Assembly (NCBI RefSeq): GCF_000210055.1
Contig: NC_021021.1
Location: forward strand, 3,513,790-3,577,789
DNA: 64,000 nt
Source of the DNA: Gordonibacter pamelaeae 7-10-1-b
GTDB lineage: Bacteria; Actinomycetota; Coriobacteriia; Coriobacteriales; Eggerthellaceae
Reading direction: 5' to 3'
The first letter of the stretch is position 1; every line of letters begins with the position of its first letter. Below the pieces are notes generated by a model. It made no database searches and had not been told where the DNA came from. It worked only from the letters and a program-made list of their open reading frames with translations. Shown piece after piece: positions 358 through 37,771 of this stretch. Both the position numbers and the translations under genes were made by a program.

Positions 358-1248
358 TTACTCCCAGCCCAGATTTTCGTGGTACCAGCGCCGCCCGTCG
401 GCCTCTTGCGACAAGACCGGGTCGAGCAGGCTTGCCGCAAGTGCTTCTGCCGTCTCGATCTCGGCGTATTCCGGGGGCAGACCGGTTTGCCGAACAAGCT
501 TCCTGAAGGTGCCGCGGTAAAGCCGTTTCCACTCCATGGGCGCCGCGTACTTCTCGGGAAGCTTTATTCCCCGCACGGTCGCCTCGATGCGCGCCCGCCT
601 GCAAAGCTCTCCGCCGTCGAAGTCGGTGGTCACGGCGTAAACCGCAACGTCTACAAGGTCTTTGACGCGCGAGGAGGGCCTGTCGCCATGCATTTCGACC
701 ATGGCGCAGAGTTTGTCGGCAAGGGAGCACGTGGCGGGGTAGATGCGATAGCCGAACGTCGGGATATCCGGTACGTCGATTCTGTCGGCTGGCTCGACAA
801 CCTCGGATTTGCCGTACGCGATCTGATCGAACACGAGGTCGATGGAGATATCCTGCAGCCGTTTTCCTCCAAGCAAGGGTGTAAAGGTGACGTTGAGTCC
901 TGCTCGGTAGTCGTCTTCGGCCTTGATCGGCTTGTATCCGACAAATTCGAAGGTTACGAAGTCCTCGAGGTCGATGGCTGCAAGATGCTTGAGTTCGGCG
1001 AGCGCTTCGTCGATATCCGCTTTCTCAGAAAGCAGGTCGATGTCTCGGGTGGCTCGTGCATCCGCAGTACGTGCAAGCATGCTCTGGCCTCCCTTCAGCA
1101 CAAAAGGCGTGTCCTGCCTGCTGAATATGCGGCACAGGAATCGATGGAAGTAGAAACCCGAGACGGCTCTCCCGGTGTCAAGCGATGATGCCTTCGCGGC
1201 GGCCTTGACCGCCATTTCGAGGGCTGTGGGGGTTGCGTACGCCATCAT
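358..1248 (-). CDS. abiEii: AbiEii-type nucleotidyltransferase toxin
   Basis: This 296-residue protein belongs to the nucleotidyl transferase AbiEii/AbiGii family (DUF1814). These are toxins of type IV toxin-antitoxin, abortive-infection systems, which transfer nucleotides to tRNA or other RNA in studied members. The signature KGGQSML followed by ATRDIDLL (residues about 52-73) gives the glycine-rich loop and the paired Asp metal ligands. A conserved LADKLCAMVEM plus KDLVDV block (about 178-200) matches the family's helical part. The start overlaps the stop of the upstream AbiEi gene (ATGA), so translation is probably coupled. Length is usual for the family. Function is inferred from family and operon layout. 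Confidence 0.85.
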   Translation of the reverse strand: MMAYATPTALEMAVKAAAKASSLDTGRAVSGFYFHRFLCRIFSRQDTPFVLKGGQSMLARTADARATRDIDLLSEKADIDEALAELKHLAAIDLEDFVTFEFVGYKPIKAEDDYRAGLNVTFTPLLGGKRLQDISIDLVFDQIAYGKSEVVEPADRIDVPDIPTFGYRIYPATCSLADKLCAMVEMHGDRPSSRVKDLVDVAVYAVTTDFDGGELCRRARIEATVRGIKLPEKYAAPMEWKRLYRGTFRKLVRQTGLPPEYAEIETAEALAASLLDPVLSQEADGRRWYHENLGWE

Positions 1249-1871
1249 GCTTCCTCCCCGAAGATCCTTGCCATCTTCCTTTTCGCTTGAGCCGAGGCAC
1301 CGGCATCTGCCGCAAGGCGTATGAGCCTTTCTTCGTCTAAGCCCTTTTCCCGGGCATCGGAGAGCGCGTCCTCCACAAGCGACGGGTCTTCGCCGTCCAG
1401 CACGAGGTCAACCAAGGTGCGCTCGATGCTTGTCACGGGGATGCCGCTTGCAAACGACACCTCGTTGCGGGAGATGTCGCGCACGCCGAACCTCGTCTCG
1501 ACGTTGCGCGAGTTGATGCGCCTCGGGGCGAGGATGCGGTAAGGCGAGAGGTAGAAATCCCCGATGCCGAGGATCGAGGCGGCCGTGTTCCCTGCGACGG
1601 CAATGCCGTCCCAGGCATCGACGGGCACCCGCTCGTGCGTCATCTTCGCGGGGTCGGTGAGCTTCCATGCGGCGGTCAGCTCGTCGAGCTGCGACGCCGG
1701 AGTCCCCGCCATCCGGTACGCACCATGGGCGATGCGCACGAGCTTCCCTGCTTCGCGAGCCTTGGCGAGCACGTTGCGCGGAATGCCGAGACGCATGGCT
1801 TGCGCCGTGGTGAAAACGCCCTCCGATGCGGAAAGCTCATTCATGATGGAAAGGTAATCACGTCTATTCAT
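1245..1871 (-). CDS. abiEi: AbiEi-type antitoxin / transcriptional regulator
   Basis: This 208-residue protein has an N-terminal winged-helix segment (GVFTTAQAMRLGIPRNVLAKAREAGKLVRIAHGAYR region, residues about 19-54) and a C-terminal antitoxin domain (SIERTLVDLVLDGEDPSLVEDAL). This is the standard arrangement of AbiEi antitoxins, which repress their own operon. It lies directly upstream of and overlaps the AbiEii toxin gene. An inverted repeat abuts the start codon (1872-1906), consistent with autoregulation. Function is inferred from family architecture. A second, sequence-divergent AbiE pair lies at 37772-39195. Confidence 0.82.
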   Translation of the reverse strand: MNRRDYLSIMNELSASEGVFTTAQAMRLGIPRNVLAKAREAGKLVRIAHGAYRMAGTPASQLDELTAAWKLTDPAKMTHERVPVDAWDGIAVAGNTAASILGIGDFYLSPYRILAPRRINSRNVETRFGVRDISRNEVSFASGIPVTSIERTLVDLVLDGEDPSLVEDALSDAREKGLDEERLIRLAADAGASAQAKRKMARIFGEEA

Positions 1872-2066: not shown

Positions 2067-2767
2067 ATGTCTGCGGGATTGGCGATCTGCCTGGTGTGCG
2101 GGGAGCCGCTCGATTACTTCGAGGAGGCGCGGGAGGTTTCCTGCCATATCTGCGGCAAGAAGGAGACGGGGCATTCCGTGTGCACGGCGGGGCACTACGT
2201 GTGCGACGTGTGCCATCGCGAGGGCGGCGTCGACCATGTCATGGAGTACTGCTCGTTCGCCGATTCGAAGAACCCGGTGGAGATGGCGATGGCCATGATG
2301 GACGACAAGTCCATCTTCCCCAACGGGCCGGAGCACCACACGCTCGTGGGCGCCGCGCTGCTCGCCGCCTACAAGAACGCCGGCGTCGACCTCGACCTGC
2401 CCCGGGCGCTTGCTGAGATGCGAAACCGCTCGATGAACGTGCCGGGCGGCACGTGCGGGCTCTGGGGGACTTGCGACGCGGCCGTGAGCGCGGGCATGTA
2501 CTGGAGCATCGTGTCGGGTTCCACGCCCATGACGCGCGGGCCGTGGGCCGAGACGCAGCGCCTGATTCGCGCATCCTCGCCCGCCTGGCCGACCTGGGCG
2601 GGCCGCGCTGCTGCAAGCGCACAGGCTTCGTCGCCCTCCAGGAGGCGGCGGCGTACACGGCCGAGCTGCGCGGTATCGAGATGGAGATGCCCGAGCGCAT
2701 AACCTGCCGTTACTTCCACCGCAACCGCGAGTGCCTGAGGGCCGGCTGCCCGTTCTTCGGCAGGTAG
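2067..2767 (+). pseudogene. DUF5714-like protein, frameshifted
   Basis: An ATG at 2067 follows a strong AAGGAGAGG-type site. The first frame encodes a zinc-finger-like head (CLVCGEP, CHICGKKE, CDVCHREGG) and the conserved block GGTCGLWGTCDAAVSAG. It stays sensible until about 2555, then turns into arginine/serine-rich shadow and stops at 2702. The next frame continues the family-like tail (ILARLADLGGPRCCKRTGF up to RECLRAGCPFFGR) and stops at 2767. A -1 (or +2) shift near 2555-2570 would join them into a protein of about 233 residues. DUF5714 proteins are uncharacterised, Cys-rich and often near methyltransferases. The gene is the first of the metalloid cluster, 184 bp before the ArsM-like gene. 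A sequencing error is possible. The family call is from recognition of motifs only. Confidence 0.6.
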
Positions 2768-2902
2768 CCTGCCGCCGACGGCGCGGCTGCTTCCCGGCGG
2801 CGTAACCGGCGGCATATTCCGCCTGAACGCCGGCCGTCGGCACGCTGCACTTCCCTTGCCGACGCTTCCCCGCTTGAACATCCGCCTCAAAGTGCTAGAC
2901 TA

Positions 2903-2922
2903 CATCTTATAATAATAGGATG
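2903..2922 (+). promoter_or_regulatory. Promoter -10 with overlapping palindrome for the metalloid operon
   Basis: A TATAAT hexamer (2908-2913) sits in the imperfect palindrome CATCTTATAATAATAGGATG (8 of 10 positions pair). It lies in an AT-rich pocket of otherwise GC-rich DNA, about 30 bp upstream of the first methyltransferase. A repressor overlapping the -10 element is plausible, but no ArsR gene lies in the window. Confidence 0.45.
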
Positions 2923-2951
2923 CAAACAACTATCGGGGAGGCGGGGCGACG

Positions 2952-4049
2952 ATGGACTACCATGCTTACTACCTCAAGGCCGAGGCCGGCGGCTACCAGG
3001 AGTATTACGATGCGATCGCGAAGGCGCAGGGCATCGACCCGCAGGCCACCGCGCGCACGCGCAACGCCGAGGACGCCGTGCCCGGCGAGGCGAAGGACAA
3101 GCTCTTCAACGTGGCCGCCGAGATCAAGAACACGTTCCATGAGTTCGGCGCCCCGCTGCCGCCGTTGCTGGAGGGGTGCACCGTGGTGGACCTGTGCTGC
3201 GGGTCGGGGCGCGACACGTACTTGGCGGCCCAGCTCGTGGGCTCTGCCGGCAAGGTCGTCGGCGTGGAGCCCAACGCGGAGCGCCTGGCCATCGCGCAGA
3301 AGTACCTGGACAAGGAGATGAAGCAGTTCGGCTACGGCCAGCCCAACGTGGAGCTGGTGCACGGTGTGCCCGAGGACCTCTCCTTCCTGGCCGACGGCAC
3401 GGCCGACGTGGTCATCTCCAACTGCACGTTCAACCTCTCGCCCGACAAGGCCGCCTACGTCGCCGAGGTCAAGCGCGTGCTGAAGCCGCAGGGGGAGTGG
3501 TACTTCACCGACGTGTTCGCCGACCGCCGCATTCCGCAGGAGACTTCGGACAAGATCGAGAACGTCGCCCTGCGCCTGGGAGGCGCCCTGTTCGTGGAGG
3601 ATTTCCGCCGCATCGCCCAGGGCCTGGGCTTCCACGACCCGCGCTACGTGGTGACGCGCAAGACGCCGTTGACCGACGCCGAGGCGTCCCTCTTCCCCGG
3701 CATCGCGTTCGCCACCGTCACCTGCCGCCTTCTGAACTCCGAGCTCACGTCGGACCACTGCGAGGACTACGGCGAGGAGGTCGTCTACGACGGGACGCTT
3801 CCCGACTATCCCGACTTCTTCCTGTTCGACAAGGACATCAAGTTCCCGGCCGGCCAGCCGTGCCACGTGTGCGACAACGTGTCGGTGCTGGGCCTTGGGG
3901 GCTGCCGCTACGCGAAGGTCATCACCGTGAAGGGCGACCGCTCGGCGCACTACGGCGATATCCACGGCGACCATATCATCAAGACGGCCGCCGACTGGGA
4001 GGGCGTCGTGGACGAGGACGACCAGCCCGTCATGGTGAGCTGCTGCTAG
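2952..4049 (+). CDS. ArsM-like SAM methyltransferase lacking one arsenic-site Cys
   Basis: This 365-residue protein has a class I methyltransferase fold: SAM motif VVDLCCGSGRD (78-88), acidic loop GVEPN, and SNCTFNLSP (156-164) including Cys158, which matches a conserved arsenite-binding cysteine of ArsM. FRRIAQGLGF follows. At the place where ArsM proteins and the downstream paralogue have GECLSGAL, this protein reads LRLGGALF, so that cysteine is missing. A C-terminal region holds CHVC (304-307) and ends in CC. It probably methylates arsenic or a related thiophilic metalloid, or has diverged to another substrate. A GGGGAGG site precedes the start. It is the first intact gene of a tight operon and ends 13 bp before the GTPase gene. 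Confidence 0.75.
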   Translation: MDYHAYYLKAEAGGYQEYYDAIAKAQGIDPQATARTRNAEDAVPGEAKDKLFNVAAEIKNTFHEFGAPLPPLLEGCTVVDLCCGSGRDTYLAAQLVGSAGKVVGVEPNAERLAIAQKYLDKEMKQFGYGQPNVELVHGVPEDLSFLADGTADVVISNCTFNLSPDKAAYVAEVKRVLKPQGEWYFTDVFADRRIPQETSDKIENVALRLGGALFVEDFRRIAQGLGFHDPRYVVTRKTPLTDAEASLFPGIAFATVTCRLLNSELTSDHCEDYGEEVVYDGTLPDYPDFFLFDKDIKFPAGQPCHVCDNVSVLGLGGCRYAKVITVKGDRSAHYGDIHGDHIIKTAADWEGVVDEDDQPVMVSCC

Positions 4050-4062
4050 GAAAGGCACGGAA

Positions 4063-5151
4063 ATGGACAAGATCAGATTCATGGTGGTGAGCGGCTTTCT
4101 GGGCGCCGGCAAGACCACGACGATGATAGCCCTGGCCGAGCACCTGAGCAAAACCTACGGCGAGACGGCCATCATCGCCAACGACCTGGGTGCGAACCTG
4201 GTGGACACGAACCTCACCCAGACGTCGGGCTGCACGGTGGCCGAGATAGCCTCGGGCTGCATCTGCTACCAGATGGACAACACCATCGACCAGATACGCC
4301 GCCTGCGCGACAAGGACGGGGCGGTGTTCGTCATGTCCGACATCCCCGGCTGCGGCGTGGGCGCGCTCGACCACGTGTACCACCGCCTGGCCGAGGACTG
4401 CGCCGACGAGTTCACGCTCTCGCCGTTCACCGTGGTGGTGGACCCCGAGCGGCTGCGCATGATCATGCCCGAGCGGGCCGACATCAACCTGCCCGAGGAG
4501 CTGGTGTACCTGCTGAAGCTGCAGCTGGAAGAGGCCGACCTCGTGGTGCTGAACAAGGCCGACCTGCTGGAGGAGGCCGGCATCCACCGCTACGTGGACT
4601 TTCTCAAGACGGCCTGCCCCGACATCCCGGTCATCGTGATCTCGGCGCTGGAGAAGACGAACATCGCGGAGCTCGCGGACTTCATCACCACGCACGAGAC
4701 GGCGCTCAAGAACTTCTCGGTGCGCCACAACCAGGAGTTCGCCGATGCGGAGGCGAAGCTCACCTGGTACAACCGCCGCCTGTACCTCAAGACGAACGAT
4801 GGCGGCAAGATAGACTGCAATGCGGTGGTGGACGACCTCATCGAGGGCATCCGCATGGGGCTCATCGAGCGCAAGCGCAACGTGCCGCACCTGAAGACGT
4901 TTGCCACCTCGGGCAACGGCGACTTCAACAAGGCGTCGCTCATCGGGGTGGACTACGACGTGGAGTACGCGCAGAAGCTGTTGCGCCCGCACAAGAACCT
5001 GCGCATGATCATCAACGCGCGCGCCGTGTGCGAGGCGCGCCCGCTCGCGCGACTCATGGACGACGCGCTGGACGAGGTGTGCGAGAAGTACGACCTGGAC
5101 TGCCAGGTGTTCTTCACGGAATGCTTCGGCATGGCGGACGAAGGTCGATAG
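4063..5151 (+). CDS. COG0523/CobW-family GTPase (metallochaperone-like)
   Basis: This 362-residue G3E GTPase has Walker A GFLGAGKTTT (11-20), SGCICYQ at the metal-binding switch position, the Walker B/GxxG region DIPGCGVGA, and the NKADLL base-recognition motif. The family's metal-binding CxCC motif appears here as CIC-Tyr, so one thiol ligand is absent. COG0523 proteins insert or deliver metals such as zinc, cobalt or iron to client enzymes. Its place between two ArsM-type methyltransferase genes suggests that it serves them, or the radical SAM cluster of the next gene, but the client is unknown. It starts 13 bp after the first methyltransferase and ends 8 bp before the fusion gene. Confidence 0.8.
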   Translation: MDKIRFMVVSGFLGAGKTTTMIALAEHLSKTYGETAIIANDLGANLVDTNLTQTSGCTVAEIASGCICYQMDNTIDQIRRLRDKDGAVFVMSDIPGCGVGALDHVYHRLAEDCADEFTLSPFTVVVDPERLRMIMPERADINLPEELVYLLKLQLEEADLVVLNKADLLEEAGIHRYVDFLKTACPDIPVIVISALEKTNIAELADFITTHETALKNFSVRHNQEFADAEAKLTWYNRRLYLKTNDGGKIDCNAVVDDLIEGIRMGLIERKRNVPHLKTFATSGNGDFNKASLIGVDYDVEYAQKLLRPHKNLRMIINARAVCEARPLARLMDDALDEVCEKYDLDCQVFFTECFGMADEGR

Positions 5152-5159
5152 GGGACAGC

Positions 5160-7217
5160 ATGGGAGTCGATGAGAGCAGGGATATTCGCGAGCTGGTGCG
5201 CGAATATTATGGGGAGACGCTGCAGGGGAGCGACGACTTGAAGACCGACGCTTGCTGCTGCACTGCGCATACGCCGCCGAAGTACGTCATTGACGTGATG
5301 AACGAGATCGACGACGAGATCATGGCGCACTTCTACGGGTGCGGCTCGCCCATCCCGCCGGCGCTGGAGGGCGCCACGGTGCTCGACCTGGGGTGCGGCA
5401 CGGGGCGCGACGTGTATATCTGCTCGAAGCTCGTAGGGCCTTCGGGGCGCGTCATCGGCGTGGACATGACCGAGCAGCAGCTGGCATTCGCGCGGCGGCA
5501 CGAGGCGGCGCAGATGGCGCGGTTCGGTTTCACGCGCTCCAACGTGGAGTTCCACTGCGGGTTCATCGAGGATCTGGGGGCCCTTGGCATTGAGGACGAG
5601 TCGGTGGACGTGGTGGTGTCGAACTGCGTCATCAACCTGTCGCCCTTCAAGGACCAGGTGTTCAAGGAGATAGCCCGCGTGCTGAAGCCGGGCGGGGAGC
5701 TGTACTTCTCGGACATCTTCTCGGACCGCCGCGTGCCGCCGAAGTTCTACGACGACCCGGTGCTGCGCGGCGAGTGCCTCTCGGGCGCGCTCTACATTGA
5801 GGACTTCCGCCGCATCCTGGCCGAGCACGGCATGCCCGTGTTCTACGACGTGGAGACGGAGCCCCTGCACGTGGGCGACTTCCAGATAGAGACGAAGCTC
5901 GGCTGCATCGGCTTCGCCTCGCACACGGTGCGCGCCATCAAGTGCGCCGACCTGGAGGACCGCGAGGAGAACTACGGGCAGACGGCCACGTACCTGGGCA
6001 CCATGCCCGAGAACGGGCGCTACTTCGACCTGACCGAGGATCTGCGCCTCATCAAGGGCCGGCCGGTGGCCGTGAGCGGGAACATGGCCGCGATGCTGCG
6101 CGCGTCGCGCTATGCCCCGCATTTCGAGGTGCGGGGCGACCGCACGCACCATGTGGGCGCCTTCGACCAGGGTGCGGCCCAGGAGGCGCTGGAGCTGGCG
6201 CGCGGGAAGCGGCGCATCGGGTTGGCCGAGCTGGAGCAGGCGTACCGCGACCTGGGCATCGAGCCGTTCGACCAGCGCGTGCACGACAAGGAGCTGCTGA
6301 GGAGCGCGCCGGAGCTCGCCACCATGCAGGTGAACGTGGGCTACCGCTGCAACCTTGCGTGCAGCCACTGCTTCCTGGAGAGCGGCCCGCAGCGCGCCGA
6401 GTGCATGGAGCGCGAGACGATGGAGGCGGTGCTCGCGGCCTTTGCGCGAGGCGGCTTCCGCACGCTCGACATCACCGGCGGCTCGCCCGAGATGAACCCC
6501 CATCTGGAATGGTTCGTGCGCGAGGCGTCCGCGCTGGCCGACGAGGTCATCGTGCGCAGCAACCTCACCATCTTGGACGCGCCGGAGTATCGGCACTTCA
6601 TGCAGGTGTACGCCGAGTGCGGGGTGCACCTGGTGACGTCGCTGCCGTACTTCAACGAGCAGGGCTGCGACCTGCAGCGCGGTCGCAACGTGTTCGACCG
6701 CGTGGTGGGTGTGCTGCGCGAGCTGAACGAGCTCGGGTACGGTGTGGACCCCGCCCTCAAGATCGACGTGGCCTACAACGTGTCGGGCCCGTTTTTGCCG
6801 CCCGATCAGCGCGAGCTGGAGGAGTTCTACGCTTGGGAGCTGGAACGCGAGCAGCACGTGAGGTTCGACAACCTCTACGCGTTCAACAACTACGCGCTCG
6901 GCCGCTTCGCGAACCAGCTCAAGCGCGAGGGGAAGTTCGACTACTACCTGGACCTGCTGTCCGAGAACTACAACGGCGCCGTGGTGGCGCGCATGATGTG
7001 CCGCTCGCAGGTGAACGTCGACTACGACGGGCGCCTGTACGACTGCGAGGTGAACCACGTGCTGGGCCTGCCGCTCGACGGGCCGCGCAACGTCCGCGAC
7101 CTCGTGGACGAGCCGCTGGGCCCGCGCACCATAGCCACGAGCCCCCTCTGCTACAGCTGCGCCGCCGGCTGCGGCAGCTCCTGCGGCGGCAGCCTCATGG
7201 ACAAGTACGGCGAGTGA
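5160..7217 (+). CDS. ArsM-ArsS fusion: methyltransferase plus radical SAM arsenosugar enzyme
   Basis: This 685-residue protein has two recognisable halves. Residues 1 to about 345 are ArsM-like: a Cys-rich start (ACCCTAH, 31-37), SAM motif VLDLGCGTGRDVY (74-86), SNCVINLSP with Cys156, and GECLSGAL with Cys206, so the expected arsenic-binding thiols are present. Residues about 385-685 are ArsS-like radical SAM: the 4Fe-4S motif CNLACSHC (397-404), the GG-SP loop DITGGSPEMNP, and the diagnostic C-terminal CYSCAAGCGSSCGG of the DUF3641/ArsS tail. ArsS is the radical SAM enzyme thought to attach 5'-deoxyadenosyl to methylated arsenic in arsenosugar synthesis. Joining both steps in one chain would channel methylarsenicals. 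The start at 5160 follows GGGGA. No in-frame UGA selenocysteine is present, although some family members are selenoproteins. Confidence 0.82.
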   Translation: MGVDESRDIRELVREYYGETLQGSDDLKTDACCCTAHTPPKYVIDVMNEIDDEIMAHFYGCGSPIPPALEGATVLDLGCGTGRDVYICSKLVGPSGRVIGVDMTEQQLAFARRHEAAQMARFGFTRSNVEFHCGFIEDLGALGIEDESVDVVVSNCVINLSPFKDQVFKEIARVLKPGGELYFSDIFSDRRVPPKFYDDPVLRGECLSGALYIEDFRRILAEHGMPVFYDVETEPLHVGDFQIETKLGCIGFASHTVRAIKCADLEDREENYGQTATYLGTMPENGRYFDLTEDLRLIKGRPVAVSGNMAAMLRASRYAPHFEVRGDRTHHVGAFDQGAAQEALELARGKRRIGLAELEQAYRDLGIEPFDQRVHDKELLRSAPELATMQVNVGYRCNLACSHCFLESGPQRAECMERETMEAVLAAFARGGFRTLDITGGSPEMNPHLEWFVREASALADEVIVRSNLTILDAPEYRHFMQVYAECGVHLVTSLPYFNEQGCDLQRGRNVFDRVVGVLRELNELGYGVDPALKIDVAYNVSGPFLPPDQRELEEFYAWELEREQHVRFDNLYAFNNYALGRFANQLKREGKFDYYLDLLSENYNGAVVARMMCRSQVNVDYDGRLYDCEVNHVLGLPLDGPRNVRDLVDEPLGPRTIATSPLCYSCAAGCGSSCGGSLMDKYGE

Positions 7218-7232
7218 GGGGGGGCGAGTCGT

Positions 7233-8132
7233 ATGCGCGCACATGCGTCGGCTGACGACCGCCTCATAGAGCGGCACCTCGATGGCGGGTGCACCGACGG
7301 GGGCTTCGTGGACGTGCGTGGCGGACGGGCGCGCGACCGGGCGAAGACGTTCGGGTCCATCGTGGCCGGCCTGACGGTGGTGCTGGCCATTTGGGGGCTG
7401 TTCGCCCTCTTCTTCAACGGGACGGGGGCCTCCGCCCTGCGCTTCCCCACGCCGGTGGAGACGTTCGCGCGCCTTAGCGAGTACCTGTTCGAGGGGCGCT
7501 CGCTTTACGGGCAGAGCATCTACGCGCACGTGGGGGCCAGCGTGCAGCGCCTCCTGGTGGCGTTTTCGCTCGCGGCGGCGTTCGGCATCGTGCTGGGGTC
7601 CGTCCTCGGCTACTTCACGCGCATCTACGCCATCGGCATGGCGCCGGTGTCCATCTTCCAGATGATTCCCGGCCTGGCCTGGCTGCCCATCGCCATCCTG
7701 CTGTTCGGGCTGGGCGACGAGTCGGCCGTCTTCATCATCTTCGCCGTGTCGTCCATGGTCATCACCGTGGACGTGGCGGGCGGCATCCGCATGGTGCCCG
7801 CGGTGCTGGTGCGCGCGGCCAAGATGGCGGGCGCGAGCGGGCCGGCCATCTTCCTGAAGGTGCTCGTGCCGCAGGCGTCGGTGTCCATCATCAACGCGCT
7901 GCGCGTGGGCATGTCATCGGCGTGGCGCGTGCTCATCGCCGCCGAGATGGTGGTGGGCACGGGGATCGGCCTGGGCTACTCCATCGAGCTCACGCGCGAT
8001 TTGCTGGACTACGTGGGCGCGTTCGCCTGCATCGCGGTCATCTGCGTCATCGGGCTGGCCATCGACCGCGTGGTGCTGGCGACCTTCGAGAAGGCCATCC
8101 GGCACCGTCTGGGCCTGGAGGAGGGGTACTGA
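7233..8132 (+). CDS. ABC transporter permease, NitT/TauT (SsuC-like) family
   Basis: This 299-residue inner-membrane protein has about six hydrophobic segments and the BPD_transp_1 loop (VRAAKMAGASGPAIFLKVLVPQ, about 190-211), which contacts the ATPase. The family imports nitrate, taurine, alkanesulfonates, thiamine precursors and similar small molecules. The N-terminal 45 residues are cytoplasmic and polar. The gene starts 15 bp after the ArsM-ArsS gene and follows a G-run (7218-7224) that acts as the ribosome binding site. Its stop overlaps the ATPase start (TGATG). Operon position suggests that the imported substrate feeds the methyltransferase pathway. The substrate itself cannot be read from the sequence. 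Confidence 0.85.
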   Translation: MRAHASADDRLIERHLDGGCTDGGFVDVRGGRARDRAKTFGSIVAGLTVVLAIWGLFALFFNGTGASALRFPTPVETFARLSEYLFEGRSLYGQSIYAHVGASVQRLLVAFSLAAAFGIVLGSVLGYFTRIYAIGMAPVSIFQMIPGLAWLPIAILLFGLGDESAVFIIFAVSSMVITVDVAGGIRMVPAVLVRAAKMAGASGPAIFLKVLVPQASVSIINALRVGMSSAWRVLIAAEMVVGTGIGLGYSIELTRDLLDYVGAFACIAVICVIGLAIDRVVLATFEKAIRHRLGLEEGY

Positions 8133-8911
8133 TGGCGCTCATCGAGCTTTCCCACGCCACGAAGGCGTACTGGACGGACCGCTCGAAGCGCCGGGCGCGC
8201 ATCGTGCTGGACGACGTGGACCTCGCCATCGAGGAGGGCGAGTTCGTGTGCCTCATCGGCCCCTCCGGCTGCGGCAAGACCGTCACTCTGAACCTCATCG
8301 CGGGGTTCGAGCAGCCCACGCGCGGCTCGGTGCGCTACCGCGGCCGCGAGGTGGCGGGCCCCGGCCCCGAGCGTGGGGTGGTCTTCCAGGAGTACAGCCT
8401 GCTGCCGTGGCTCACGGTGCTGGAGAACGTGGTGTTCGCGCTCGACTCATGTGGGGCCCCGCGCGCGGCGCGCCGCGACACGGCGCTTTCGGCTCTGCGC
8501 GCCGTGGGATTGGCCGAGTTCGCCGACCAGCGGCCCAACCTGCTGTCGGGCGGCATGAAGCAGCGCGTGGCCATCGCGCGGCTTCTGGCCATGGACTCGG
8601 ACGTGTTCCTCATGGACGAGCCGTTCTCTGCCCTCGACGAGCAGACGCGCGCCGCCCTCGACGCGAGCCTGTTCCATTTGTGGCGCGAGCGCCGCAAGAC
8701 CGTGGTGTTCATCACCCATAACATCTCGGAGGCGGTGCTGTTGGCATCGCGCATCGTGCTGTACTCCGGCACGCCGGGATCCATCATCGGGCAATGGCGC
8801 GTTCCCGAAGACCTGCCGCGCGATGCGGGCAGCCCCGAGGCCCGGCGGCTCCATGCCGAGATCCGGGACCTCATGCCCGCGAGCGCGTGCTCGTTTGCGG
8901 AGGATGCGTGA
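8132..8911 (+). CDS. ABC transporter ATP-binding protein, NitT/TauT family
   Basis: This 259-residue nucleotide-binding subunit has Walker A GPSGCGKT, Q-loop QEYSLLPWL, signature LLSGGMKQRVAIARLLAM, Walker B VFLMDEPFSALDEQ and switch His ITHNIS. All catalytic motifs are intact. It powers uptake with the permease directly upstream, from which it is translationally coupled by a one-base overlap. The start at 8132 gives MALIELSHATKAY, a standard beginning for this family. The longer upstream extension of the frame is permease shadow. Confidence 0.9.
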   Translation: MALIELSHATKAYWTDRSKRRARIVLDDVDLAIEEGEFVCLIGPSGCGKTVTLNLIAGFEQPTRGSVRYRGREVAGPGPERGVVFQEYSLLPWLTVLENVVFALDSCGAPRAARRDTALSALRAVGLAEFADQRPNLLSGGMKQRVAIARLLAMDSDVFLMDEPFSALDEQTRAALDASLFHLWRERRKTVVFITHNISEAVLLASRIVLYSGTPGSIIGQWRVPEDLPRDAGSPEARRLHAEIRDLMPASACSFAEDA

Positions 8912-8975
8912 TGCGCATATGCCGGGAAAGGGCGGCCGCACGGCCGCACGACGCAAGAAGGAGAGGGAAGCGATC

Positions 8976-10121
8976 ATGAGAACAAGGAAACGCACGGCGA
9001 AGGCGAAGGTGCTGCTGCTCGCCTGCATGGCGGCTCTTACCCTGGGCGTGGCAGGCCTATGGGGCTGCGCCTCGGGCGACGGCCAAGGCGACGCGAAGCA
9101 GGGCGAGGCCCCGGCCTCCGAGAGCCAGGAGGCCTTGGAGCCCGTATCGGTGGCCTACCTGAACAAGGCCGGCTACGAGACCGTCATCGTGGCCGACAAG
9201 AAGGGCTACTTCGATGCCGCGCCCATGGACGTGGAGCTGCTCACCGTGAGCGGCTCGGGCCAGCAGTCCGTCGAGGCGCTCCTCGCAGGCTCCGCCGATA
9301 TCGCGGCCACGGGCCAGGGCCCGGTGGCAGACGCGCTCGGCCAGTACGGCGATGACATCGTGGTGCTCTGCGGCACGAACTGCAACACGAACTCGCAGGT
9401 CATCGTTGCATCGCCGTCAATGACCGGTGATACGGCCATCACGCCCTACGACAAGGCGTCGGACAACAAGGCGGAGGTGAAGGCCTCGTTCGAGGCGGCC
9501 GCCGCCGCGCTCGGCCGCCCCGTGAAGCTGGGCGTGCAGCAAGGAGCCACCACCGAGTCGGCCGTGAAGTCGTGGATGAGCGCCATGGGCGTGTCGGTGA
9601 ACGACTTCGGCACCGAGGGCGACGGCACCGTGACGCTCGTGGACGTGAAGGCCAACACGCTGCCCACGGTGCTGGCCGCCGGCAGCGACATCGACCTGAT
9701 GGCCGCGAGCCAGCCCTACCCGGACACGGCGCTTTCCGCCGCCCCCGGCTCCTACCGCGTAGGCTCCAACGCGGACACGAACTCCTACGACGTGGCGGCG
9801 TACATCACCACGAAGGAGGTCTACGAGAAGGAGGAGGCCTCCCTCAAGGAGTTCGTTAAGGCGCTCGACCAGGCCACCGACTATATGGCTGACAGCGCGA
9901 ACGAGGCCGAGTGCGTGAAGATCTGCGCCGACAGCATGGGCGCGTCCGAGGACACCGTGCGGGCGGCGTTTTCCGTGGCCGACTGGAAGACGGGCATGAC
10001 CGACACCATGCTGGACTCCCTTGCGAAGGCCGTGAAGAAGAAGGGCTACGAGATGACGCCCGACCAGATCAAGGCCGCCTGCCCGCTCATCCCGTGGATG
10101 GACGCGGAGCTGGGCGACTAG
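8976..10121 (+). CDS. Substrate-binding lipoprotein of the NitT/TauT ABC importer
   Basis: This 381-residue exported protein has a basic N-terminus (MRTRKRTAKAK), a hydrophobic core and the lipobox LWGC (Cys31), after which the mature lipoprotein begins with a Gly/Ser/acidic linker. The body matches TauA/NMT1-like binding proteins: VAYLNKAGYETVIVADKKGYF, then LLAGSADIAATGQGP and a hinge region. The start at 8976 follows AAGGAGAGGG. Binding-site residues cannot be assigned to a substrate. Two cysteines in VLCGTNCNTN lie where the ligand cleft is expected and could be of interest if the ligand is a metalloid. The gene completes the importer and ends 97 bp before the DUF1847 gene. Confidence 0.85.
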   Translation: MRTRKRTAKAKVLLLACMAALTLGVAGLWGCASGDGQGDAKQGEAPASESQEALEPVSVAYLNKAGYETVIVADKKGYFDAAPMDVELLTVSGSGQQSVEALLAGSADIAATGQGPVADALGQYGDDIVVLCGTNCNTNSQVIVASPSMTGDTAITPYDKASDNKAEVKASFEAAAAALGRPVKLGVQQGATTESAVKSWMSAMGVSVNDFGTEGDGTVTLVDVKANTLPTVLAAGSDIDLMAASQPYPDTALSAAPGSYRVGSNADTNSYDVAAYITTKEVYEKEEASLKEFVKALDQATDYMADSANEAECVKICADSMGASEDTVRAAFSVADWKTGMTDTMLDSLAKAVKKKGYEMTPDQIKAACPLIPWMDAELGD

Positions 10122-10218
10122 CCAGCAGGCGCTGCGGGAGGGGGTCGGCGGGGGCTTATGCCGCACGGCCCCCTTCGAACTGCGCGCAAGGCGCGAGTCC
10201 GGGGAAAGGACAACGACC

Positions 10219-10890
10219 GTGGACAACGAACATGCAGCGGCCTACGGGCCCTCGTGCGCCGACTGCGGCTCGGGCGGCTGCGCCGACGGGTCGGGGGCGT
10301 ACCCGCCCTTCTGCGCGACGGCGGCGCTCGCCGCGGAGGATCGCGCCGCGCTGCTCGAGCAGTACCGCGACGAGGAGGTCTACCGCATCATGGCCGCCGC
10401 CTCGGACACGGCGCGCCTCGCGTTCGACGAGCACTGGTGCCGCGTGGAGGAGACCATGGAGTACGCCCGCCGCACCGGCGCGCGGAAGCTCGGCATCGCC
10501 GTGTGCTCCGGCCTGCTGGGGGAGGGGCGCACGCTCGCGCGCATCCTGCGCGCCAACGGCTTCGACGTGTACGGCATGGCCTGCAAGGTGGGTTCGCTCA
10601 CGCGCGCCGAGCTCGGCGTCGCCGACAGCTGCTGCGACTACGGCGCGGTGTCGTGCGACCCGCTGCTGCAGGCGCGGCTGCTGAACGAGGCCGGCACCGA
10701 CCTCAACATCGTCATGGGCCTGTGCGTGGGCCACGACATCCTGTTCGCGCAACGCTCCGCCGCCCCCTGCACCACGCTCGTGGTGAAGGACCGCGCCCTC
10801 GTGCACAACCCGGTGGCGGCGCTGCACGCGGCCTGCGGCCCCTCGCCCTACAACCGCATGCTCAAGCAGCACCCCGCCTGGCGGGCCTGA
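10219..10890 (+). CDS. DUF1847 Cys-rich metal-binding-like protein
   Basis: This 223-residue protein starts at a GTG after GGGGAAAGGA. The N-terminus carries a cysteine cluster (CADCGSGGC, then YPPFC). Further paired cysteines occur in VADSCCDYGAVSC and GLCVGHD. The order matches DUF1847 proteins, whose function is unknown but which are regarded as metal-binding. It is the last gene of the metalloid operon and converges with the EAL gene, with 6 bp between stops. A thiol-rich partner fits a pathway for arsenic or another soft metal. It could be a cytosolic carrier, a reductase or an enzyme; nothing in the sequence decides this. Confidence 0.72.
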   Translation: MDNEHAAAYGPSCADCGSGGCADGSGAYPPFCATAALAAEDRAALLEQYRDEEVYRIMAAASDTARLAFDEHWCRVEETMEYARRTGARKLGIAVCSGLLGEGRTLARILRANGFDVYGMACKVGSLTRAELGVADSCCDYGAVSCDPLLQARLLNEAGTDLNIVMGLCVGHDILFAQRSAAPCTTLVVKDRALVHNPVAALHAACGPSPYNRMLKQHPAWRA

Positions 10891-10896
10891 CGGGCG

Positions 10897-12855
10897 CTAT
10901 TCCTCGCCGCGCCCCTCGCTTGCGGCGATGGCTGCGGCGGCCTCTTCGGGCGGCAGGGGGCGCGAGAACAGGTAGCCCTGCATAAGGTCGCAGCCGCACC
11001 GGCCCAGGAAGGCCCGCTGCTCCGGTGTCTCCACCCCTTCGGAGAGCGCCTGCGTGCCCAGCACGCCGAACCCGGAGGCCAGAAGCGCGAAGAACTCCAC
11101 CAGATGCTCGTCCTCCGTCACGGACCGCAGGATGCTCTTGTCCAGCTTCACCACGTCGAACGGCAGCTCCAGCAGCGTGGACAGGTTCGAGTACCCCGTG
11201 CCGAAGTCGTCCAGGTAGAAGCGCACGCCCTGTGCGTGCATCTTCTCCATGAAGGCCCGCACGGCCTCGGGGTTCGCGATGATGGCGCTCTCCGTCACTT
11301 CCACGCGCAGGCACGACGCCGGTATGCCGTGGCGCGCCACCACGGCCAGCACCGATTCGGCCAGGTCGTCCTGTATGAACTGCACGGCCGAGAAGTTCAC
11401 CGACACGCCGTGGAACGTCGTGCTCGGGTGGGCGTCCCGGTAGGAGCGCACGAACGCGCAGGCGCGTTCCAGCATGAACCGCGTGACGTCTGATATGACG
11501 CCGATCTGCTCGGCGATGGGGATGAACTCGTCGGGCGGGATAGGGCCCAGCTCGTCGTCGGTCAGGCGGCAGAGCGCCTCGGCCGCCACGAACCGCCGAG
11601 CGCTCTCGGACCAGATGGGCTGCAGGTTCAGGGTGAAGCCGTCCTGCTCGGCCGCGCGGCGCACCACGTCGGCGATGGCGTTGCGACGGTGGATGGCCCC
11701 CATCATCTCCGGCGTGCAGACGCAGGGGGTGTTTGGCTCCAGCTTCCTCGACTCCACCGTGGCGTATTCCAGGGCGGCAACCACGTCGCCGGGCGTGCGC
11801 GCGATGGCGGGATAGCTCACGGCGCCGATGGCCGCGCCCACCGTGCAGGAGTGCCCCCCGATGCGCCACGGCTCTTCAAGGCGCTTTTGCAGCGGGGCGA
11901 TCAGGGTGGCCGTCGCGGCGGCCTCGTCGTGGTTCCCGCCTGCGCCGTCGCAGCTTGCGATCAGGGCGAACTGGTCGCCGCTGTAGCGGTAGAGCCGCGC
12001 CTCGCCGACAGTGCCCAGGTACGCGGCGAACTCGCGCAGGAACCGGTCGCCGTTCTCGTGGCCGAACTTGTCGTTGATGAACTTGAAGTTGGACAGCGAA
12101 ACGAGCACGGCCGTGAACGGCTGCCCCTTCTCGTCCATGAGCGAGACCATGGACAGGAACTCCTGGCGGTTGGAGGCGCCGGTGAGCTGGTCGACCGACA
12201 GGCGCTTGTTCTGCAGGTACAGGTAGATGGTGAGCAGCGAGCACGCGGCCGCCGACCCCGACAGCAGATAGGTTGGGAACAGCTGCTGCACGGCTATCAC
12301 GCCCACGGCGATGAGCGGGAACACGGCCAGGATGCGCTTGATGACGGGGTCGATGGGCGCCCGCGTGAACACCACGAGCGCGAAACAGGCCACGCAGTAG
12401 AAGTAGAACACCAGGTAGGTGGCTATAATGAGCGGCCCCTGCATGTAGACGCCCGCCGCGTCGAAGGAGAACAGGCAGCCGGTGGGGACGTTCGCCAGCA
12501 CCAGCAGGAAGTACGCCGCGCACGGCACGCCGCTCGCCAGGACGAAGGCCCGCCCGACCGGCCGCGCCTCGCCCACAACGGCCACGGCGTAGTAGAAGTA
12601 CACGGTGCCCAGAAGCGGCGTGAGCACGAAGTAGCAGAGGGTCACGAGGTAGGTGAGCGGCAGCAGCTCCAGCGGCGCATAGGCGATCATGAGCGTCGAG
12701 GCCAGGTTCGTGCCGATAGCCCCCAGTGTGGTGGCCAGGCAGAGCCGGAACACCCGGTTCTTCGGCGACGGCACCGCATGGCTCTGGCGCGAGTACACGG
12801 AGATGACGAGCACGATGATGAAGGCGATGACCTCAGCCGATACGTTCCATCCCAT
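10897..12855 (-). CDS. Membrane GGDEF/EAL protein (c-di-GMP phosphodiesterase, degenerate cyclase)
   Basis: An N-terminal integral-membrane region of about seven to eight hydrophobic segments (residues about 1-215) is followed by a GGDEF-type domain and a C-terminal EAL domain. The cyclase signature reads SGDQF instead of GGDEF, so cyclase activity is doubtful. It may bind GTP and regulate the EAL domain. EAL motifs are intact: AAEALCRL, VNFSAVQF, VEVTESAI, DDFGTGYSNL, KLDKS and EGVETPEQ, so c-di-GMP hydrolysis is likely. I take the start at MGWNVSAEV (12855). An in-frame upstream ATG at 12909 would add 18 polar residues. It may sense a membrane or lipid signal. It is convergent with the metalloid operon. 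Confidence 0.82.
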   Translation of the reverse strand: MGWNVSAEVIAFIIVLVISVYSRQSHAVPSPKNRVFRLCLATTLGAIGTNLASTLMIAYAPLELLPLTYLVTLCYFVLTPLLGTVYFYYAVAVVGEARPVGRAFVLASGVPCAAYFLLVLANVPTGCLFSFDAAGVYMQGPLIIATYLVFYFYCVACFALVVFTRAPIDPVIKRILAVFPLIAVGVIAVQQLFPTYLLSGSAAACSLLTIYLYLQNKRLSVDQLTGASNRQEFLSMVSLMDEKGQPFTAVLVSLSNFKFINDKFGHENGDRFLREFAAYLGTVGEARLYRYSGDQFALIASCDGAGGNHDEAAATATLIAPLQKRLEEPWRIGGHSCTVGAAIGAVSYPAIARTPGDVVAALEYATVESRKLEPNTPCVCTPEMMGAIHRRNAIADVVRRAAEQDGFTLNLQPIWSESARRFVAAEALCRLTDDELGPIPPDEFIPIAEQIGVISDVTRFMLERACAFVRSYRDAHPSTTFHGVSVNFSAVQFIQDDLAESVLAVVARHGIPASCLRVEVTESAIIANPEAVRAFMEKMHAQGVRFYLDDFGTGYSNLSTLLELPFDVVKLDKSILRSVTEDEHLVEFFALLASGFGVLGTQALSEGVETPEQRAFLGRCGCDLMQGYLFSRPLPPEEAAAAIAASEGRGEE

Positions 12856-13184
12856 GTCGTTCGCCCATCCTCGTCTCCCGGCGCCCGCCGAGAGGGCCGC
12901 ATCCCGCAACCCCCTGTCTTATTGTAACGTCTCGTCCCCGCTCCGCCCCGCACAATTCATTCTTGAACTTCCCCTGAACGCCGTCGGCGCAGGTCCTCCG
13001 TTCCCGCAGGTCCTCCCCGGGCGCCTCCTTTCCCGCATGGCGGGCATGGCCGGCATCGCTCGCCGAGCGGTGGTGTAGCGCTCCGGCGCCCCTTTTGGCA
13101 GAAAACGGCCGGTTTGGCAATCTCCGCGCCCCTTAACGTGCGAGCGGGGCGGCCCTTTCCCTGCGGTCCTCAAGGTTTTCCCTG

Positions 13185-15656: not shown

Positions 15657-16218
15657 GGTCCATCCAACCTTCCTCTTCGCCTTCAACCTCGATTTGCCGC
15701 AGGGGCTGCAGCTCCCTGGCCCATGCCAACGACTCCCAGTTGGAGCCGGCAAGGGCAGCGGCCGCCTCATCGTCCATGGTCGGGTCCGCCGCTTTCAGCG
15801 CCTCGACCACGCCCTGCAGTTTGCTCGCCAGGGACGGGCCGCCTCCGTCGGAGAGCAGCAACGCGGATGCGCCGTCCAAGCGCATGACGTCCACCAGCCC
15901 TTCTCCCATCCGGACGAGCATGCGGTCCCCGTCGACAAGAACCTGCTCGACTTCTTTCAACTCGGCCTCCTCCGCGAGGAGGAAGCGCCAGCCCATGGAC
16001 CTTCGCCCTACGGGAACCACGCCGTCGTCCAGGTCTTCCTTGAACCTCGGGTCTGCATCGTAGAAGTGGGCTTGCAGCCACAATCCCTTCTCAAGGCGGT
16101 CGAACCGGACCTCGTAATCCGCCAGCATGCAGCCGTCACCGAACGGCTGCGCGGGCGTGTACGAGTCCGTGTCGAAGACGTCCAGCCGCCCGCTTCTGTA
16201 CTTAACCTGAACCCTCAT
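15643..16218 (-). CDS. Hypothetical protein of the mobilisation operon
   Basis: This 191-residue acidic protein (MRVQVKYRSGRLDVFDTD) was not assigned to a family. Its start overlaps the relaxase stop (ATGA), so it is co-translated with the relaxase. The sequence is mixed alpha/beta with many Glu/Asp in the last 60 residues, with no membrane segment and no cysteine cluster. It probably has an accessory role in DNA processing or regulation of the element, judged only from its position. Confidence 0.6.
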   Translation of the reverse strand: MRVQVKYRSGRLDVFDTDSYTPAQPFGDGCMLADYEVRFDRLEKGLWLQAHFYDADPRFKEDLDDGVVPVGRRSMGWRFLLAEEAELKEVEQVLVDGDRMLVRMGEGLVDVMRLDGASALLLSDGGGPSLASKLQGVVEALKAADPTMDDEAAAALAGSNWESLAWARELQPLRQIEVEGEEEGWMDHEDD

Positions 16219-17516
16219 CGGCTACGCCCTTCCTGTTGCCTGTCCCTGCTGTCCCGCCTTGCCGCAGCGGAGCTCTGACCCGCCCTCTGAGGCCTGTTTC
16301 CGCTGCGCTGCGGCCCGTATTGCCAACGGTCGGATCCAGAGCCTTGATGCCTTCTTGCGAGCTCCCCATCTGGAACCAGGGAGTGTCTTGAGGCGTACTC
16401 CCTGGCCTCGGCGAGCTCCTGGATTCGCTCGGCGCATTTCGCCGCCGCCTTGGCCTCAGGCTCCCTTTCCATGCGCCTTTGAAGTGTCTCGATGCGCCTT
16501 CCGTAATCCCCGCTCGATCGGATCGAATATTGTGCGTTCGTCTCGACCGCCTTCGCCAGGCTGCCGAGCTCCGCAACGTCTTTGATCTCCACGGCGTCGG
16601 TGGCCATGGAGAGGATCGCCCTGGAAGATGCGGCGTCCGGATGGTAAGAGCCGATTCGCACGAAGCGCTCTGTCAACGCTATCTTGCCGAACGTCATCCC
16701 GAGCCTCTCCCCTGACACCTTCCTGGATGGCTGGTCCGCCAAGGAGAAGATCCAGTCCTCCCGGGGTGCCTGGGTCGAATTCTCTGCGACCTCGATCTCC
16801 ATGAGCTCCAGTATTCGCATGAACTCGCCTTCGTTGCGCGACAGCACCTTGGCCACGGACACCCTGTTTCTGATGTCGCTGACCCACGAGTAGCCACCCG
16901 CGTCCAGGATTCCGCGCTCGGCTTTGTTGATATACGTGGCCCACCGCGTTCGAGGTCGGGGAGGGGTTCTCGGATCGCTCCGCCCTGCCCTGCCCTTCGG
17001 CATCTCGTTGTCGAAGACCGTCAACCCTCTTGCCTTGGCAACTTCCTGCAGGCTGCGGTTCATATCAAGCACATTCGGGATGTGGAGTCTCCGGCCGGTT
17101 TCGAGATTGGTATTGTTCACCACGATGTGCGCATGCGGGATCCCCTGCCTGTTATCGTCGTGGTAGACGACGGCCACCTGATAGTCGGAGAAGTGCTTTT
17201 TGACCCAGGCGTGCGTTAACTCACGCAGTCCTTCGAGGCCGATGTTGTCGCTAGGATCCGGGGAGATCGCGTAGTGACGGAACGTGATGGCGCGCTGCCC
17301 CTTCCATGGCCTGTCGTTGCCGTAGTCGTGGCGTAATGCGTCCATCTCTAAAGCCCAGTCCACTTCGTCCTTAAGAGCGGCATCCAGCCCCTTGTCCTCG
17401 ACCTCGTCCCAGGAGAGGTTGAAGAAGTCGCGCAGCAGCGCCCTTCCGCCCTTCTCAAGGTAGTCCTTGATGCGGCCGCACCCCGTGTGGCCGTTGATCG
17501 CCTTGAGGACCGCCAT
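16215..17516 (-). CDS. Relaxase / mobilisation nuclease (MOBP-like)
   Basis: This protein of about 433 residues has a relaxase domain at the N-terminus: AVLKAINGHTGCGRIKDYLEKGG, then AITFRHYAISPDPSDN, and the metal-binding histidine motif YHDDNRQGIPHAHIVVNNTN. It would nick the transfer origin and covalently bind the strand through an N-terminal tyrosine. The C-terminal 200 residues are polar and end in a Gln/Arg-rich tail, with no helicase or primase domain. I chose the ATG at 17516, two bases after the MobC-like stop; a TTG at 17528 is the alternative. It belongs to an operon with the MobC-like gene upstream and two small genes downstream. Confidence 0.82.
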   Translation of the reverse strand: MAVLKAINGHTGCGRIKDYLEKGGRALLRDFFNLSWDEVEDKGLDAALKDEVDWALEMDALRHDYGNDRPWKGQRAITFRHYAISPDPSDNIGLEGLRELTHAWVKKHFSDYQVAVVYHDDNRQGIPHAHIVVNNTNLETGRRLHIPNVLDMNRSLQEVAKARGLTVFDNEMPKGRAGRSDPRTPPRPRTRWATYINKAERGILDAGGYSWVSDIRNRVSVAKVLSRNEGEFMRILELMEIEVAENSTQAPREDWIFSLADQPSRKVSGERLGMTFGKIALTERFVRIGSYHPDAASSRAILSMATDAVEIKDVAELGSLAKAVETNAQYSIRSSGDYGRRIETLQRRMEREPEAKAAAKCAERIQELAEAREYASRHSLVPDGELARRHQGSGSDRWQYGPQRSGNRPQRAGQSSAAARRDSRDRQQEGRSR

Positions 17517-17518
17517 CG

Positions 17519-17944
17519 CTACCGCCAAAACCTCTCGGACTTATGGACCGCCTGAACCATGTCCTTGATTTCCTCGACGGAGCCCTGGACGAGTTCCAGC
17601 TCGCTTGCCGCCTTGTTTAGCTGCTCCTTCGCGACCTGCGGGTCGATGCCGCCTTTGTTCCTCGCGAACATCGCTATGGTGTTCAGGGCCCTGACCGCCT
17701 GGTTGTAGTGGCGTCCCCAGCGGACGAGCTCGCGGTTGATGCGGCCCATGGTCTTCGCGTCGATGACGACGACGCGGCTTCCCTCGTCTATGGCGGCGAG
17801 GTTGTCGGGATCGGCTATGGGCAGCCTAAGGAGGGCGCGGATGGCCTCGGAGTTCGCAAGCTCCAGACTCTCCGCCCTTTGGTCCAAGAGCTGCCTGTCC
17901 TCCTCTGTCATGCGGCAGCTCACGGTGCACGTGTACACACCCAT
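17519..17944 (-). CDS. MobC-like relaxosome accessory protein
   Basis: This 141-residue protein begins MGVYTCTVSCRMTEEDRQLL. It has an N-terminal ribbon-helix-helix-like segment (VSCRMTEEDRQLLDQRAESLELANSEAIRALL) and the MobC signature region (INRELVRWGRHYNQAVRALNTIA), followed by a helical tail. MobC proteins bind near oriT and help the relaxase open the strands. The start at 17944 is preceded by AAGGAG. It is the first gene of the mobilisation operon, directly next to a palindrome-rich intergenic region that is a likely oriT. Confidence 0.75.
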   Translation of the reverse strand: MGVYTCTVSCRMTEEDRQLLDQRAESLELANSEAIRALLRLPIADPDNLAAIDEGSRVVVIDAKTMGRINRELVRWGRHYNQAVRALNTIAMFARNKGGIDPQVAKEQLNKAASELELVQGSVEEIKDMVQAVHKSERFWR

Positions 17945-17945
17945 C

Positions 17946-18131
17946 GTTTTCTCCTTGCGTCTTGTAGGGGCCACGGGGGATCCCCCGTGAAGGAAGCGGC
18001 GACGGTGGAAGGCGTCTTGCCGCTTCCGGTTGCCAGAGGTCGGGGAGGGTTTCCGGATGGCGTCCCCATCCGGGGTGGAAGCGCCCTGCCCCGCCCCGGA
18101 ACGAGTTCATTGCGTTGTAATACGCAATGAG
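17946..18131. other. Putative transfer origin (oriT) region
   Basis: The 186-bp gap between the MobC-like gene and parB holds a perfect 18-bp palindrome CACGGGGGATCCCCCGTG (17972-17989) and further arms CCGGATGG and CCATCCGG around 18053-18077. Position next to mobC/relaxase genes and dense inverted repeats fit an oriT. The nick site cannot be placed. Confidence 0.45.
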
Positions 18132-19091
18132 TTACTCGCTACGATTCGTATATGACGGGTTCTGCCGAGCCCCATGGGCATCGGTGAACCCTGAAACCGC
18201 ATCGCCGGCCTGGCGGGCCAGCTCAGCGATGCGGGATATCGCCTCGGAATCCGCCGCAGTAGGGGTCTTGGGGAGGTTCGCGACGAAGCGGCGGAGCGCC
18301 TTCTCGGCGCTTGCGAGCCGCTTGTCGGCGGCGGGTTTCGAGGCCGTCATCGAGGCGACCAGCTCGGTAGTCGCCGCCTTCGATCTCGGCGACTCCAACC
18401 ACTTCTCGAACGCCGATCTCTGCGTCGCCTCGTCGGACCCGGCCAATGCGTCGACGGCCTTGACCGAGAGCCCGCCGGAGTCCGCCGCATCGCGCCATTC
18501 TGGAATGAGGCCCGCGACCTCGTCCGCGAGCGCCTCCTCGCGCTTGATGGTCTTTCCGCTTACCTTGCGGCCCGTCATCTCCTCGACGATGCGCGCCTTG
18601 ACGTCCTCCGTGCGCATGCCGGCAAGGGACGGGTCCGCTGCGCGCATCTGCTCGACTTGGATGCCGAGGGCTTTGGTGGCGGCAGCGCGCTCGGTGACGG
18701 TCAGGGAGCGTGTGAAGAAGTTCGCGGTGTGAAGCAGCACCACGGCCTGCTCGTCGGAGACGTCGGAAGCGATCCTGCAGGGGATCTTCGAATAGGAGGG
18801 ACCCTGTTGGGAGAGCAGCCTGAATGCCGCCATCCTGCGATGCCCGGAGATCATCTGGAATCCCCCGCCCTGCAGCCTCCTGACCAGAGGGAGGTCCGTC
18901 AGGCCGTCGTGCCGGATGGACTCGGCGAGTCTTGCGATCCCCTCCTCGTCCATGGAGTACGCGACGTTGCCGGGGTGCCCTTGGATGTCGGAAAGGGGTA
19001 TCTCCCTTACCGGAAACCTGCTTGCCGTCTGGGATCCGGCGTCGAGCAGGCCGCTGATGCTGAAGCCTTCGGCCACGTCCGCCGCGCTCAT
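18132..19091 (-). CDS. parB: ParB-family partition protein
   Basis: This 319-residue protein has a ParB N-terminal domain (VREIPLSDIQGHPGNVAYSM, then ISGHRRMAAFRLL, the GxxRxxA motif of the CTPase fold) and a helical middle (LTVTERAAATKALGI, KARIVEEMTGRKVSGKTIKREEAL), which should be the HTH/KorB-like DNA-binding part. It would bind parS sites and, with ParA, segregate or stabilise the element. The start at 19091 overlaps the parA stop (ATGA). The longer frame upstream is parA shadow. Confidence 0.85.
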   Translation of the reverse strand: MSAADVAEGFSISGLLDAGSQTASRFPVREIPLSDIQGHPGNVAYSMDEEGIARLAESIRHDGLTDLPLVRRLQGGGFQMISGHRRMAAFRLLSQQGPSYSKIPCRIASDVSDEQAVVLLHTANFFTRSLTVTERAAATKALGIQVEQMRAADPSLAGMRTEDVKARIVEEMTGRKVSGKTIKREEALADEVAGLIPEWRDAADSGGLSVKAVDALAGSDEATQRSAFEKWLESPRSKAATTELVASMTASKPAADKRLASAEKALRRFVANLPKTPTAADSEAISRIAELARQAGDAVSGFTDAHGARQNPSYTNRSE

Positions 19092-26543: not shown

Positions 26544-26544
26544 C

Positions 26545-28125: not shown

Positions 28126-28127
28126 CT

Positions 28128-37754: not shown

Positions 37755-37771
37755 GTTGGGAGGGACGGGCG

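Follow-up and report, generated by a model that had tools for sequence, protein, structure and literature searches.

An ArsM-ArsS fusion protein and its conserved gene core as candidates for organoarsenical biosynthesis in Coriobacteriales

What might a gut anaerobe do with a single polypeptide that joins an arsenic methyltransferase (ArsM) to the radical SAM protein ArsS? Such a fusion is encoded in the window, the stretch of 64,000 nucleotides analysed here, which covers positions 3513790-3577789 of the 3,608,022-base, single-contig genome of Gordonibacter pamelaeae 7-10-1-b. To our knowledge, only the first two steps of arsenosugar biosynthesis have been established, in cyanobacteria, where the two enzymes are separate proteins. 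Gut anaerobes that can be cultivated and naturally encode an ArsM-ArsS fusion would offer a single-protein system for arsenosugar chemistry, and the fusion suggests that intestinal bacteria produce or process organoarsenicals. The genes at 2067-10890 of the window were assigned from open reading frames and from NCBIfam and Pfam profile scans with curated cut-offs. All genes that an earlier note on this DNA had named were recovered on the plus strand, at or near the places where it had put them. The fusion gene (5160-7217; 685 amino acids, assigned from family scans and orthologues) is preceded by genes for an ArsM-like methyltransferase, here called ArsM1 (2952-4049), and for a CobW/COG0523-type GTPase (4063-5151; PF02492, 75 bits versus a cut-off of 20.7). 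The gaps at these core genes measure 13, 8, and 15 bases, and the scan of the window revealed no terminator-like sites between core genes on the plus strand. The single plus-strand match lies within the fusion gene, and the matches in total are about as numerous as expected by chance. Neither promoter-like sites nor Rfam matches were found in the scans. From 2952 to 10890, every gene has a full-length reading frame that contains no in-frame TGA (selenocysteine) codon.

The two halves of the fusion protein

The ArsM half (residues 8-339; 5181-6176) matches CrArsM (5evj, E 2e-89) and CmArsM (4fr0, E 2.5e-87) and scores below the cut-offs of the named ArsM models (NF008823, 186.2 versus 263; NF038099, 92.7 versus 400). 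Its residues C61, C156, and C206 correspond to C72, C174, and C224 of CmArsM and are cysteines in 25, 26, and 25, respectively, of the 26 fusion sequences. In CmArsM, these three residues bind As(III) (PMC12608789). A structure of the fusion was predicted from the 26 sequences (mean pLDDT 82, pTM 0.69), and the best PDB folds found with Foldseek for its ArsM half were arsenic methyltransferases, among them CmArsM (4fs8; 1.7 A over 305 columns). Arsenic-site cysteines and fold thus bear out the assignment of this half to ArsM made in the earlier note.

The ArsS half (residues 385-679; 6312-7196) reaches 348.3 bits against TIGR04167 (cut-off 300) over model positions 6-303 and contains PF04055 and a C-terminal DUF3641 domain (PF12345). 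No other radical SAM model of NCBIfam scores near TIGR04167 on the fusion, and the reservation that a non-arsenic family might match better was not borne out by this profile search. The cluster motif CX3CX2C (C397, C401, C404) is invariant in all 26 fusion sequences. C675 stands at the selenocysteine position of selenoprotein ArsS and is a cysteine in 25 of the 26, the remaining sequence having a gap. Wherever the aligned sequences have a residue, the C-terminal cysteines of this half are conserved. The fusion does not stem from an assembly artefact or from read-through between frames, because one open frame encodes it in many independent genomes.

An ArsS enzyme would be expected to 5'-deoxyadenosylate dimethylarsenite. 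Judging from these sequence features, the fusion is probably a bifunctional enzyme that dimethylates arsenite and then 5'-deoxyadenosylates it. The ArsM half would methylate As(III) twice with SAM to form dimethylarsinous acid, and the ArsS half would then use its 4Fe-4S cluster to cleave another SAM and add the 5'-deoxyadenosyl group to that arsenic. The expected product would be 5'-deoxy-5'-dimethylarsinoyl-adenosine, which is the earliest nucleoside intermediate on the way to arsenosugars. ArsS has been described to adenosylate arsenic (PMC12159101), and Synechocystis ArsS and ArsM work together according to a report cited in PMC8552651. Methylation may not be universal among the fusions, since the methyltransferase half in genome G006 has apparently lost the equivalents of C61 and C206.

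In the ArsS domain tree, the fusion proteins form a single, long-branched clade (SH-aLRT 100) distinct from the standalone ArsS proteins that these genomes encode. This position could also reflect a related organometalloid pathway, in which both halves act on arsenic but make something other than a classical arsenosugar: the ArsS half might have an altered acceptor, or another organoarsenical might be built with ArsM1, the CobW GTPase, DUF5714, and a HydE-like radical SAM protein. The unusual partners of the fusion, the recurrence of HydE-like neighbours, and the enrichment of DUF5714 in fusion genomes (see below) are consistent with such a pathway. However, the ArsS half exceeds the curated ArsS cut-off and has all expected cysteines, and we regard this alternative as fairly improbable. 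The genome of the window (G000) also contains a second ArsS, a standalone selenoprotein (Sec318; C1:1986276-1987184, locus L054; 390 bits against TIGR04167), which adjoins a TIGR04169 arsenosugar-associated peroxidase-like gene and a PhnP-like hydrolase. The presence of this copy with its usual peroxidase-like neighbour means that the fusion may have another product. PhnP-like metallo-beta-lactamase genes were seen both near the selenoprotein ArsS (L054:11025-11999) and near the fusion of genome G041 (L079:13272-14039).

Comparison with known systems places the fusion close to the cyanobacterial ArsM and ArsS (Synechocystis). The same two families are involved, as the ArsS half passes TIGR04167 and the ArsM half has the arsenic site of CmArsM. 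However, two genes encode the cyanobacterial enzymes, whereas here one polypeptide occurs in anaerobic Coriobacteriales with ArsM1 and CobW as partners. The selenoprotein ArsS encoded elsewhere in the genome of the window likewise matches TIGR04167, but it is standalone and adjoins neither CobW nor an ArsM with the arsenic site. In the arsinothricin genes arsQML of Burkholderia gladioli, a radical SAM enzyme and ArsM also act in series on arsenic, but ArsL transfers an aminocarboxypropyl instead of an adenosyl group, and the present cluster has no arsQ-type efflux gene. An arsinothricin-type cluster was ruled out by the low score against NF040538 (144.1 versus 500 bits) and by the missing genes. 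Haft and Gwadz reportedly defined a selenocysteine-assisted organometal (SAO) gene set in 2023. The transporter downstream of the fusion resembles SaoA and SaoP, DUF5714 is part of MbdU, and NCBIfam contains CobW-related and ArsM-related selenoproteins. However, the scores against SaoA (209.5 versus 360 bits) and SaoP (97 versus 295 bits) are below the cut-offs, the present cluster lacks in-frame TGA, and ArsS is central to it.

The conserved core and its distribution

The fusion was found in 25 loci of the genome-collection scan, all from Coriobacteriia by record title. Among 249 genomes sampled from the order Coriobacteriales, 22 carry it, a count that includes one fusion cut by a contig end and one with a degenerate methyltransferase half. 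The closest relatives are from Gordonibacter (88-89% identity). In the phylum sample, most other ArsS proteins above the cut-off have a length of about 310-340 residues and are hence standalone, with exceptions in G000 and G001. Beyond Actinomycetota, the searches covered plasmids and viral contigs rather than the chromosomes of other phyla: none of the matches in plasmid records extends over 80% of the protein, ArsS being standalone there, and no viral contig carries the fusion. Both enzyme families are already known. The fusion architecture is new, in that no earlier description was found in the literature searched, a scope that excluded most subscription papers. A different ArsS fusion occurs in other Gordonibacter and Eggerthellaceae (L055, L056, L057, L058, L061, and L063). 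It combines TIGR04167 (357 bits in L056) with an N-terminal half that looks metallophosphoesterase-like by eye and has no Pfam match, and it adjoins a sodium/solute-symporter-like gene. This form was not seen near the window, and in the ArsS domain tree it groups apart from the ArsM-ArsS fusion clade.

ArsM1, the CobW GTPase, and the fusion form a conserved core in Coriobacteriales. CobW adjoins the fusion in 22 of the 25 loci, contig edges cutting off two of the remaining three, and ArsM1 does so in 16. The set survives rearrangement: the gene order is altered in L014, and in L018 the opposite strand carries CobW and ArsM1. The link between the three genes thus exceeds inherited gene order. 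ArsM1 and the CobW GTPase may be dedicated partners of the fusion, probably in arsenic or metal handling and not in ordinary methylation. ArsM1 resembles ArsM over most of its length (5evj, E 1e-56; 4fr0, E 1e-46), and the earlier note's ArsM-like methyltransferase is indeed present, but its arsenic site is incomplete. The equivalent of Cys174 (C158) is kept in all 17 orthologues, whereas the position of Cys72 holds F, Y, L, or H in 17 of 17 and that of Cys224 an R in 16 of 17, with never a cysteine at either. The C-terminal Ser-Cys-Cys is invariant, C364-C365 being found in 17 of 17. Because the Cys72 and Cys224 equivalents are missing throughout and the protein ends in Ser-Cys-Cys, ArsM1 is unlikely to be a standard arsenite methyltransferase, and by its sequence it probably does not function as a normal ArsM. 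It could instead serve as a thiol carrier or partner subunit, and the CobW/COG0523-type GTPase is a possible metallochaperone.

Upstream of the core lies the gene for the Cys-rich DUF5714 protein (PF18978; 2067-2767), which encodes cysteine but no selenocysteine and ends 184 bases before ArsM1, versus gaps of 8-15 bases inside the core. The earlier note had counted two Cys-rich DUF genes. DUF1847, discussed below, is confirmed and DUF5714 is present, but the latter is frameshifted near 2565 and thus not intact here. In the Pfam scan, positions 1-109 of PF18978 align in the frame of 2067 and positions 110-173 in another frame, whereas both parts share one open frame in a Gordonibacter relative. 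The frameshift may be a draft assembly error or real decay. Intact homologues are located directly 3' of the fusion in L011 and L072 and 5' of CobW-fusion in L079. DUF5714 relates to the N-terminal part of the metal-binding selenoprotein family MbdU, with a match to NF045648 below the cut-off. It is encoded in 17 of the 22 fusion genomes versus 67 of all 249 (hypergeometric p 3e-7, a value made optimistic by the kinship of the genomes).

Possible base removal or detoxification

In genome G006, genes for a purine nucleoside phosphorylase (PNP; above its cut-off) and an amidohydrolase come after the fusion. Among proteins of solved structure, the amidohydrolase is closest to deaminases of the MTA/SAH type. 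Seven of the 22 fusion genomes (G006, G033, G037, G040, G054, G445, and G521) have such a deaminase at most 5 kb from the fusion. At least four arrangements are seen, and in G043 the deaminase adjoins a standalone ArsS. Its occurrence together with PNP beside the fusion was seen once, in G006. The deaminase was rejected as a fusion-specific gene, because the 91 genomes of the 249 in which it occurs include some that lack the fusion, and its position alone is telling. The repeated placement of this normally single-copy gene beside the fusion suggests a route for base removal from the ArsS product. We know of no enzyme assigned to base removal to arsenoribose-1-phosphate. In some relatives, the adenosine-type deaminase may act on the arsenical adenosine, and PNP may then release hypoxanthine and leave arsenoribose-1-phosphate. 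Both enzymes are testable candidates for this step. Alternatively, they may recycle SAH from the methylations.

The latter function would also fit a detoxification module, in which the fusion converts arsenite inside the cell to a less harmful organoarsenical for disposal, the deaminase counters the inhibitory effect of SAH, and nothing further is built. Methylation yields SAH, which is an inhibitor of methyltransferases, and the SAH/MTA-type deaminase is a housekeeping enzyme that stands beside the fusion in some genomes. The earlier note had argued against simple detoxification because arsR, arsC, and efflux genes are absent. This argument does not hold, since the formation of an organoarsenical can itself detoxify. 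The genome also contains a weak ArsB-superfamily match. Neither Acr3 nor ArsP was found in the genome of the window, the assembly of which is 83% complete, a result in favor of the detoxification module. However, no ArsR-like regulator was seen next to the core, fusion genomes are enriched in importers, which would be odd for disposal, and the genome has a separate ArsS copy. Disposal without further synthesis is conceivable but somewhat doubtful, and it overlaps with the preferred reading of the fusion as a dimethylating and adenosylating enzyme.

Importers and other neighbours

Directly 3' of the fusion are genes for a NitT/TauT-type ABC importer. They encode a permease (7233-8132; PF00528, with TauC, NtrB, and SaoP-like matches below their cut-offs), an ATPase whose gene overlaps that of the permease by one base (8132-8911; PF00005; TIGR01184, 230 bits, below 291.8), and a substrate-binding lipoprotein of the NMT1_2 family (8976-10121; PF13379, 66.7 bits versus a cut-off of 24.7). 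A gene for a Cys-rich DUF1847 protein with a GTG start follows (10219-10890; PF08901, 172.8 bits). The importer and DUF1847 might be unrelated neighbours that by chance lie 3' of the core in one species. No transporter of the window's type was found within the fetched flanks of other fusion loci, Gordonibacter included, and no DUF1847 homologue was found near the fusion in the 25 loci. Absence from most relatives' loci also ruled out the importer as a member of the conserved core. However, orthologues of the lipoprotein (55-57% identity) occur in three other genomes of the 249, all of them fusion carriers. The resulting four of four genomes correspond to a hypergeometric p of 5e-5 (5e-4 without the window), and a second, NMT1-type importer is found in 14 of the 249 genomes, 11 of them with the fusion (hypergeometric p 5e-11), although shared ancestry of the genomes makes all these values too small. 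This second type adjoins DUF5714 in G006, G025, G040, G042, and G521, and in G006 and L022 its neighbours are CobW and the fusion. A purely fortuitous neighbourhood appears rather unlikely in the light of these associations. An accessory link of the importer to the fusion, not always reflected in physical linkage, gains support. The inclusion of the importer in the cluster, as the earlier note had it, is thus backed by enrichment in fusion genomes but not by synteny with the fusion in most relatives.

Taken furthest, the fusion might be part of a near-complete anaerobic arsenosugar route in gut Coriobacteriales, with formation of the arsenical adenosine by the fusion, base stripping to arsenoribose-1-phosphate by the adjacent deaminase and PNP, ArsM1 as an arsenic carrier instead of a methyltransferase, and dedicated NitT/TauT-type importers for an organoarsenical or a precursor. 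We consider this extended scheme speculative and, as a whole, unlikely.

In the genome of the window, another NitT/TauT-type importer adjoins a HydE-like gene, without DUF5714 (L091, C1:1842000-1858000). HydE/BioB-like radical SAM proteins that belong to no named family recur close to the fusion or next to importer modules (L023:12145-13155, L086:1039-2088, L018:20864-21859, L088:11119-12240, and L091:10889-12184). At the 3' end of the cluster, a GGDEF-EAL-type signalling protein (identified by eye) is encoded convergently at 10897-12909 of the window, and its homologue in G001 (L073:257-2164) lies just 3' of the corresponding region. Two gene pairs of the window (358-1871 and 37406-39195), also read by eye, resemble toxin-antitoxin systems of the AbiEi/AbiEii type. 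Minus-strand relaxase-like and ParA/ParB-like genes, followed by a type I restriction-modification set, occupy 16215-19855 and 26527-32381 of the window (by eye), where a mobile element probably has integrated.
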